DNA from: an uncultured Clostridia bacterium | Lineage (GTDB): Bacteria; Bacillota; Clostridia; Christensenellales; Borkfalkiaceae | Direction: 5' to 3' | Length of the DNA stretch: 64,000 nt | Assembly: GCA_947625385.1 (NCBI GenBank) | Contig: CANQOB010000001.1 | Location: 1-64,000, forward strand | Shown: piece after piece, positions 48,514 to 50,686 of the stretch | How positions within the stretch are numbered: position 1 is the first letter of the stretch | Layout of the letters: each line of letters starts with the position of its first letter | Notes under the pieces: model-generated | The model's database searches: none | Seen by the model: only the letters and a program-made list of their open reading frames with translations | Told to the model about the DNA's origin: nothing | Position numbers and translations under genes: made by a program

Positions 48514-50343
48514 ATGAGTTTTTATTACGATCCGATAGACCCGCGCTGCAAATCCCTCGTCGGGGCATGCAAGCGCGGCAGTGAAATTACGTTTCGCGTC
48601 TTTCAAAACCAAAGCGGAGAGGGGACTTTCTCGGCGGAAGTTTGTTATTTCGTGCTCTACGAGGACGGAAAGCCCGAAACCGTTTTGCCCATGAAGCGGA
48701 CGAAAGAGGGCTTCGAACTCGCTTTGCGTTTTCCGCAGACGGGTCTCTTCTTCTATTACTTTACTTTCCCCGACAATGTATTTCTCGGTCGGGGCAGGCT
48801 GCGCAGAGCCGCGGTCACCCGCCATCCCGCGAGCTGGCAGATCACCGTCTTTGAAGAGGATTACCGCACGCCCGATTGGATGAAGGGCGGGGTGATGTAC
48901 CAGATCTTCCCCGACCGCTTCTGCAAATCCGGAGAAGGGAGCGTGCCGCCGCACAAGCGTCTGCGCTCCGATTGGGGCGGGTGTCCTTCCTATCTTCCCG
49001 ACGAATACGGCAAGATTCACAACAACGATTTCTTTGGGGGGAATCTGCGCGGCGTCATCGAAAAGCTCGATTATCTCGAAAGTTTGCATGTGAGCACGGT
49101 CTATTTCAACCCCATCTTCGAAGCGTATTCCAATCACCGCTACGATACGGGCGACTATCTGCGCATCGACCCGCTGCTCGGGACGCTCAAAGACTTCGAC
49201 GAACTCATCGAAAAGGCAGCCTGCCGCGGCATCAAGATCGTCCTCGACGGCGTATTCAACCATACGGGCGACGACAGCCGCTATTTCAATAAATACGGCA
49301 GATACGACTCCTTGGGCGCCTACCAGTCCCCCGCCTCTCCCTATGCGAAATGGTACCGCTTTCACGAATTTCCCACTTCCTACGACAGTTGGTGGGGCAT
49401 CGAGACGCTGCCCGCCGTCAACGAATGCGACGAGGGCTTCCGCAACTTCATCTGCGGAGAAGGCGGCGTACTGAAATATTGGCTCGCCCGCGGTATCGGC
49501 GGCTACCGTCTCGACGTCGCCGACGAGCTCCCCGATTCCTTCCTCGAGCTTTTGCGCACCTCCGTCAAGGAGGAGAACCCCGACGCCGTGATCATCGGCG
49601 AAGTCTGGGAGGACGCATCGAATAAGATCGCTTACGGCGAACGCAGAAAGTACCTGCAAGGAAAAGAGCTCGACAGCGTGATGAACTATCCGCTCAAAGA
49701 CGGCATTCTCAATTTTATGCTTTCGGGAAGCTGCGATCAGCTCCGCGAGACGATCTTCATGCTCCTCGACAACTACCCCAAAGAGACGCTCGATGTGCTC
49801 ATGAACGTGCTCTCGACGCACGATACGCCGCGCATTCTCACCGTCCTCGGCGGAAAACATTGCAGAACCAAACGGGAAATGGCGGAAACGCAGCTCACCG
49901 ACGCGGAAAAGCTGCTCGCCAAAGAACGCTTGAAGGCAGCCGCGCTCCTCGAATACACGCTCTTCGGCGTGCCCTGCATTTATTACGGCGACGAGGCGGG
50001 CATGGAGGGCTACGGCGACCCGTTCTGCCGCAGATGCTTCCCGTGGGACGGCATGGACGAAGAACTCGTGGAATACTTCCGTCTGCTCGGCGAGATTCGC
50101 ACCCAACGATTTCACGGCATCCTGACGGACGGCGGCTACCGCGAGGTCTTCGCAGACGTCTCCTGCCTCGTATTCGAACGCAGAAAGGACGACCGCGCGA
50201 TCTACGTCTTTTGCAATCTTTCGTCGTCGGAATACCGCATCCGCTTCGACGGAAGTTTCACCGAACAGCTCACGGGAAAAGTCTATGAAAACAGCTTCAC
50301 CGTGCCGCCGTATTCTTACGGAATCTTGGCGAAAACCGAATAG
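48514..50343 (+). CDS. GH13 alpha-amylase/neopullulanase-like glycosidase
   Basis: GGVMYQIFPDRF; DGVFNHTGDDS; GYRLDVADELP; NVLSTHDTPR. Confidence 0.92.
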   Translation: MSFYYDPIDPRCKSLVGACKRGSEITFRVFQNQSGEGTFSAEVCYFVLYEDGKPETVLPMKRTKEGFELALRFPQTGLFFYYFTFPDNVFLGRGRLRRAAVTRHPASWQITVFEEDYRTPDWMKGGVMYQIFPDRFCKSGEGSVPPHKRLRSDWGGCPSYLPDEYGKIHNNDFFGGNLRGVIEKLDYLESLHVSTVYFNPIFEAYSNHRYDTGDYLRIDPLLGTLKDFDELIEKAACRGIKIVLDGVFNHTGDDSRYFNKYGRYDSLGAYQSPASPYAKWYRFHEFPTSYDSWWGIETLPAVNECDEGFRNFICGEGGVLKYWLARGIGGYRLDVADELPDSFLELLRTSVKEENPDAVIIGEVWEDASNKIAYGERRKYLQGKELDSVMNYPLKDGILNFMLSGSCDQLRETIFMLLDNYPKETLDVLMNVLSTHDTPRILTVLGGKHCRTKREMAETQLTDAEKLLAKERLKAAALLEYTLFGVPCIYYGDEAGMEGYGDPFCRRCFPWDGMDEELVEYFRLLGEIRTQRFHGILTDGGYREVFADVSCLVFERRKDDRAIYVFCNLSSSEYRIRFDGSFTEQLTGKVYENSFTVPPYSYGILAKTE

Positions 50344-50378
50344 TATGTCAGACATACAATACTATGCGTGACATACTA
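50341..50378 (+). repeat. Intergenic hairpin element copy 3 (divergent, includes GH13 stop codon)
   Basis: TAGTATGTCA...TGCGTGACATACTA; 10-bp perfect arms around the invariant core start. Confidence 0.7.
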
Positions 50379-50528
50379 CCGAAGAAGATCTTCGGTCATG
50401 TTTTGCAGCCGATTTCGGAAAAAAACGGACGATCGGCAAAAGATCCGACGCAGCGATAAAAACTGTGTATGAGCGGAAATCCAGAGAAAAAAGCTGATTT
50501 TTTGCAAAAAAACTAATTTTTTGCCCAT

Positions 50529-50562
50529 AACTATTCGTAAAACAATGATTTTACGCATAGTT
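50529..50562. promoter_or_regulatory. dif-like inverted repeat: candidate Xer recombination site or operator
   Basis: AACTATTCGTAAAA-CAATGA-TTTTACGCATAGTT: 14-bp arms with one mismatch and a 6-bp spacer. Confidence 0.5.
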
Positions 50563-50583
50563 TAATTTGTCGGTATTGCAGAA

Positions 50584-50613
50584 AATCGCCTCTCCCCCGA
50601 GGGGCGGATTTTT
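50584..50613 (+). terminator. Hairpin with T-rich tail upstream of the recombinase promoter
   Basis: CGCCTCT-6 nt-AGGGGCG-GATTTTTG. Confidence 0.55.
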
Positions 50614-50651
50614 GATTTTTCATAAAAATTCCCCTTTAACTATTCGTAAAA

Positions 50652-50680
50652 TTGACAGCGCTCTCTTTTTTTGCTATAAT
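50652..50680 (+). promoter_or_regulatory. Consensus sigma-A promoter of the recombinase gene
   Basis: TTGACA-17 bp-TATAAT. Confidence 0.85.
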
Positions 50681-50686
50681 TGTCGT

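Follow-up and report, generated by a model that had tools for sequence, protein, structure and literature searches.

What is the function of a 14-6-14 inverted repeat that lies just upstream of the gene for a single Xer tyrosine recombinase in a Clostridia genome? The question is raised by one locus in the window (the whole stretch of 64,000 nucleotides that was analysed, the start of contig CANQOB010000001.1 from an uncultured Clostridia bacterium), where the letters at positions 50529-50562 read AACTATTCGTAAAA-CAATGA-TTTTACGCATAGTT, exactly as a preliminary description of this DNA had reported, and the two arms match at 13 of 14 positions. The dyad ends 124 bp before the ATG of the recombinase gene (‘xer’), in agreement with the distance of about 125 bp given in that description, which went on to propose a self-contained locus for the resolution of chromosome dimers. 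As set out below, the dyad is highly likely to serve as dif in an Xer system with a single recombinase, in that the site is unique, conserved and at the terminus, and no XerC or XerD passes its cut-off; the ‘self-contained’ part of the proposal does not hold, because site and gene are found apart in several relatives. The features of the locus are collected in the table.

Features of the recombinase locus (positions in the window)
Feature	Position	Strand	Remarks
Glycosidase gene (alpha-amylase/pullulanase-like by sequence reading)	48514..50343	+	Upstream, syntenic
Putative dif, left arm AACTATTCGTAAAA	50529..50542	+	Conserved position by position in 46 orthologous loci
Putative dif, 6-bp central (strand-exchange) region CAATGA	50543..50548	+	Length fixed, sequence differs between species
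Putative dif, right arm (AACTATGCGTAAAA on the - strand)	50549..50562	-	Conserved in orthologous loci
Third recombinase half-site (exact AACTATTCGTAAAA), candidate autoregulatory operator	50638..50651	+	Adjoins -35 box; 28/33 genus loci
-35 box TTGACA	50652..50657	+	Consensus promoter in 29/33 genus loci
-10 box TATAAT	50675..50680	+	6 nt before ATG
xer, single Xer tyrosine recombinase, 354 aa	50687..51751	+	Catalytic R198, K222, H293, R296, Y329

Pattern searches established that the site is unique within its own genome (1.66 Mb, 95% complete): zero-mismatch half-sites are confined to the dyad and to a further half-site at the xer promoter, which the preliminary description had overlooked, and with one mismatch allowed there are eight scattered single half-sites, compared with four for a reversed-pattern control. 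Among 200 genomes of the same order, the strict pattern is present in exactly one copy in 106 and in more than one copy in none (the reversed control matches one of the 200), which settles in the affirmative the question of uniqueness raised by the preliminary description. A search for the full dyad that permitted centres of 4-8 bp recovered it from 28 of 61 relatives, with a 6-bp centre in every match, while the reversed control recovered 0 of 61. The exact half-sites found nowhere else, the fixed centre in those 28 relatives and the empty control together place the dyad far beyond chance.

Conservation upstream of orthologues, which the preliminary description had named as a check, is also evident: a dyad with the consensus arm AACTATKCGYAAAA lies within 1.6 kb upstream of xer in 46 of 60 orthologous loci, usually at a distance of 70-500 bp. 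In these 46 loci, located with a pattern that itself fixed the CG, the AAAA and the 6-bp centre, arm positions 4, 6, 8, 9 and 11-14 are invariant in both arms, and the sequence of the centre varies between species. Read in the direction of the gene, 29 loci have T at position 10 of the left arm and C at the same position of the right arm, and one locus has the opposite arrangement; this asymmetry is a small, consistent polarity; for the polarity of the site across whole replichores, two genomes (G037 and G006) give opposing results. A strict match is missing in about half of the order's genomes, some of which have diverged arms (as in L029, with one arm reading AACTATTCTTAAAA) and others of which are incomplete MAGs. 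Of 143 genomes from elsewhere in the class, 4 have the pattern, each with an Xer that is 54-57% identical, and three of these four also carry a strong XerD-like gene.

Two database entries filed as gut phages, MT835555.1 and MT835478.1, carry an Xer of 49-51% identity. They were rejected as phages and read as bacterial scaffolds, with genes of the mreB, minD, rodA and lexA type by sequence reading in L298 and L299 (18620-20000, MT835478.1), one of which has a dif-like dyad 1.3 kb upstream of Xer. On the strength of these two scaffolds, the system may extend further in Clostridia.

The dyad is located at the replication terminus. In G160, a genome assembled as one contig of 2.77 Mb, the sampled skew is positive to about 1.2 Mb and negative beyond, and the local cumulative GC-skew maximum (1,210,486) lies 848 bp from dif (1,211,334); the corresponding distances are 743 bp in G037 (maximum 125,344, dif 126,087) and 63 bp in G041 (264,540 and 264,603). 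The two are about 10 kb apart in G006 (119,167 and 109,184) and about 7 kb apart on the contig of the window (43,395 and 50,530), where the skew is weak. The preliminary description had suggested a comparison with the GC-skew minimum: the location at the terminus stands, to within 63-848 bp in three relatives, whereas the sign does not, the peak being a cumulative maximum when read 5' to 3'.

Adjacency of site and gene, although common, is not universal. The dyad is single-copy, with xer 33-54 kb away or on another contig, in G188, G113, G038, G036, G053, G147, G077 and G099, and where the skew peak of such a genome is clear it stays near the site. In G188, dif (74,588) lies 2.4 kb from the skew maximum (76,962) and 54 kb from the gene (20,475), while in G038 the site (ATCTTTTCGCAAAA-GCCGTG-TTTTGCGAAAAGAT, at 64,304) lies 14 kb from the maximum (50,453) and 54 kb from a gene (118,040) with no dyad upstream of it. 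The skew maximum of G113 is 37 kb from the site, yet gene orientation switches near the site. In both G188 and G113, large ORFs are mainly on the + strand up to dif and mainly on the - strand beyond, and the interval between dif and gene is occupied by housekeeping genes (MutS, MutL, PheS and PheT among them, by sequence reading), with no prophage. Since the site, not the gene, marks the terminus in G188, G113 and G038, a genome-level dif function is separable from an operator function.

The locus also has the appearance of a regulatory region. Gene order within the genus is glycosidase - dif - xer - hflX - lexA, and in G036, which has xer at another location, dif is still beside the glycosidase gene. 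Immediately 5' of the ATG, 29 of 33 genus loci have a near-consensus sigma-70 promoter with a spacer of 17 (n=23) or 18 (n=6); in the window it has the form TTGACA-N17-TATAAT and directly follows the third half-site. Exactly 6 nt separate the -10 box from the ATG in 22 of the 29 promoter-bearing loci, which predicts a leaderless xer mRNA. In most of these 29 loci the half-site abuts TTGAC, an arrangement that suggests autoregulation, with repression of xer by its own recombinase as the simplest reading. The dyad, too, is upstream of the gene, and it could be argued that it is a mere operator, bound by the recombinase or a regulator that controls xer transcription, with no recombination involved. 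That reading is very unlikely: the promoter half-site fits an operator role better than the dyad does, the dyad stays single-copy at the terminus where the gene is distant or on another contig, its centre is fixed in length while varying in sequence, and mobile elements (described below) are located exactly at it.

The protein itself carries the domains of its family (Phage_integrase, PF00589, 103 bits; SAM-like N-domain, PF02899), and its catalytic R198, K222, H293, R296 and Y329 are invariant in 25 clade members. An orthologue or relative is present in 58 of 61 relatives. The genome contains three PF00589 genes, the other two encoding shorter integrases (~300 aa). A second XerC/D gene, for which the preliminary description had advised a search, was not found over cut-off: in the genome itself TIGR02224 and TIGR02225 both score below theirs, and none of the 61 relatives has an XerD (TIGR02225) above the curated cut-off, although a few have additional XerD-like recombinases below it (207-280 bits). 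FtsK-gamma is encoded in the genome (71 bits).

The assignment of the protein to XerS rather than to XerC/XerD, also made in the preliminary description, survives in part. Of the NCBIfam models, XerS (NF003462) matches best, but the score of 192.7 bits falls short of the cut-off of 267, and in a tree of 40 sequences the Clostridia Xer form one group (99/92), apart from both XerS (100/99) and XerC/XerD (96/92). This tree was rooted at its midpoint, and XerS is represented in it by sequences that pass the XerS model and one annotated plasmid XerS, with no streptococcal sequences. The protein is thus ‘XerS-like’ but, by the curated model, not XerS. More distant relatives of the recombinase are found on the Butyrivibrio megaplasmid pCY360 (L302) and in the ~100-kb Enterocloster phages CB473P1/P2 and CB457P2.

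Single-recombinase Xer systems described previously are XerS, XerH, XerA and XerL (PMC5357621, PMC2731167, PMC3025954, PMC9765430). One of the closest is XerS/difSL, in which one recombinase of ~355 aa acts on a site at the terminus that is usually just upstream of the gene. Its difSL site is 31 bp in length, with arms TTTCCGAAAA and TTTTCTTGAAA and an 11-bp centre (PMC5357621); the resemblance to difSL that had been noted at the outset is partial, extending to the CG plus AAAA of the arm. The arms of the Clostridia site (AACTATTCGYAAAA) are 14 bp and nearly symmetric, and its centre is fixed at 6 bp. The Clostridia site can, in addition, be tens of kb from the gene (the adjacency seen in 46 of 60 loci is lost in G188, G113, G038 and others), and it is accompanied by an additional half-site at the promoter. 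A true XerS/difSL system, held in common with streptococci and lactococci by vertical or horizontal descent, would account for the best NCBIfam match, for the position on the same side of the midpoint root as XerS, and for the similar length and gene-site linkage; it is a less likely reading still than a mere operator, given the score below the model cut-off, the separate, fully supported clade formed by the XerS sequences that pass it, and the contrast between 13-14-bp, nearly symmetric arms around 6 bp and the unequal arms around 11 bp of difSL (PMC5357621).

The remaining systems differ in other respects. XerH/difH of Helicobacter and Campylobacter likewise consists of a single recombinase of 354-362 aa and a terminus-located dif close to its gene, but its arms (AGTTATGAAAA and AAAAGTTTGA; PMC5357621) differ from those in Clostridia, and no XerH chain was among the PDB matches at E 1e-5 in a sequence-only comparison. 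XerL/dif of Legionellales shares the single recombinase, the long, uninterrupted inverted-repeat arms, a site that may be far from the gene, and exploitation by a mobile element (PMC9765430); it differs in sequence and phylum, and the site of L. pneumophila is >400 kb from its gene, whereas adjacency is common in Clostridia. XerCD/dif has the same core geometry with a 6-bp centre, the location at the terminus, FtsK-gamma in the genome and exploitation by single-stranded DNA phages, yet the Clostridia system has one recombinase instead of two and long arms, and the pairing of two recombinases with a 28-bp asymmetric dif is not what is found here.

From these observations, a mechanism can be proposed in which each of the two near-identical 14-bp arms would be occupied by one molecule of the 354-aa recombinase, the two dif copies of a chromosome dimer would synapse, and each pair of strands would be cleaved and exchanged where the 6-bp centre meets the arms. 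Division would thus be preceded by separation of the dimer at the terminus, a step for which the FtsK encoded in the genome is probably the licensing factor. The polarity of the site would be set by the asymmetry of the arms (CGT on the left and CGC on the right, in the direction of the gene) together with the asymmetric centre, and through the half-site beside the -35 box the recombinase would be able to repress xer transcription. We infer binding, cleavage, dimer resolution, FtsK dependence and autoregulation alike from sequence.

The site is very probably the dif of a single-Xer lineage without a description in the literature searched, which was mostly that outside subscription journals; within that scope, no single-recombinase Xer system was described for this part of Clostridia. 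The bacterial single-recombinase lineages in the same literature are only XerS, XerH and XerL, to which the Clostridia system would add another, one that occurs across an order of gut Clostridia and in some Clostridia outside that order. Its dif could serve as a terminus marker for MAGs, and its near-symmetric arms would make it a clean model for the order and polarity of strand exchange by one enzyme. The same dif is, apparently, a ‘landing pad’ for small single-stranded DNA elements.

Two such elements occupy the interval from dif to xer. In L062 (685-5013), an inovirus-like element of ~4 kb follows dif (685-719) and encodes a Rep_OBD replication protein (55 bits), with weak matches to inovirus G7P and to Zot, the latter short of its cut-off at 17.4 bits; its gene-proximal end, AACTATGCGTAAAAG...CTTTTACGCATAGTT, is built from dif arms and folds as a forked hairpin whose centre is unpaired (z -7.35). 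The element in L056 (6441-9942), of the rolling-circle Rep_1 type (58.5 bits) and with a sigma-like gene, has the same layout and a forked hairpin formed from dif arms (z -6.94). Relatives of the Zot-like protein of L062 and the Rep protein of L056 were not found in viral contigs. The design recalls the attP(+) of CTXphi: as in IMEX of that type, an element resides at dif, and two inverted dif-like sites at its end form a forked hairpin in which the centre is left unpaired (PMC4246890), although the hosts here are Clostridia with a single Xer, and one element is of the Rep_1 rolling-circle kind while the other is inovirus-like. Judged by their anatomy, both appear to use dif through the host Xer and single-stranded DNA. 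The presence of such insertions in some relatives, and of a tyrosine recombinase beside a core-type site, might suggest that a mobile element attaches at the dyad and has the 354-aa protein as its integrase; this is the least likely reading of all, as the gene is chromosomal, at the terminus, in conserved synteny and present in 58 of 61 relatives, while the inserted elements have replication genes of their own and no integrase genes were seen in them.

The dif reading can be widened into a single, more ambitious picture, which is offered tentatively and as a whole is somewhat doubtful: a separate lineage of single-recombinase dimer resolution would span this whole order of Clostridia, with negative autoregulation via the half-site at its leaderless promoter. 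Single-stranded DNA elements would hijack it by means of folded attP hairpins like those of CTXphi, in hosts that are not of the XerCD kind, and tailed gut phages would mimic it with an identical dif beside their terminase genes. In IMG/VR, the strict dyad is present on 16 contigs, about half of them with the dyad beside terminase-type genes; the tailed-phage contigs L095, L099, L100, L101, L102, L103, L105 and L107 have it between or beside such genes. Tailed phages with the dyad possibly rely on the Xer of the host to integrate or to resolve dimers.

In G007, a copy of dif next to the glycosidase gene has a microvirus major capsid gene (PF02305, 321 bits) beside it (L110 744-3249, G007:C78), a single case in a MAG that is 75% complete with 5% contamination. 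Microvirus relatives showed no convincing dif half-site, and a Phage_F search of the 200 genomes gave zero matches, as did its control search. Finally, short palindromic repeats (TATGTCAGACATAC and TATGCGTGACATAC) lie directly 3' of the glycosidase gene at positions 50345-50382 of the window, and they recur at the same location in G007:C83.
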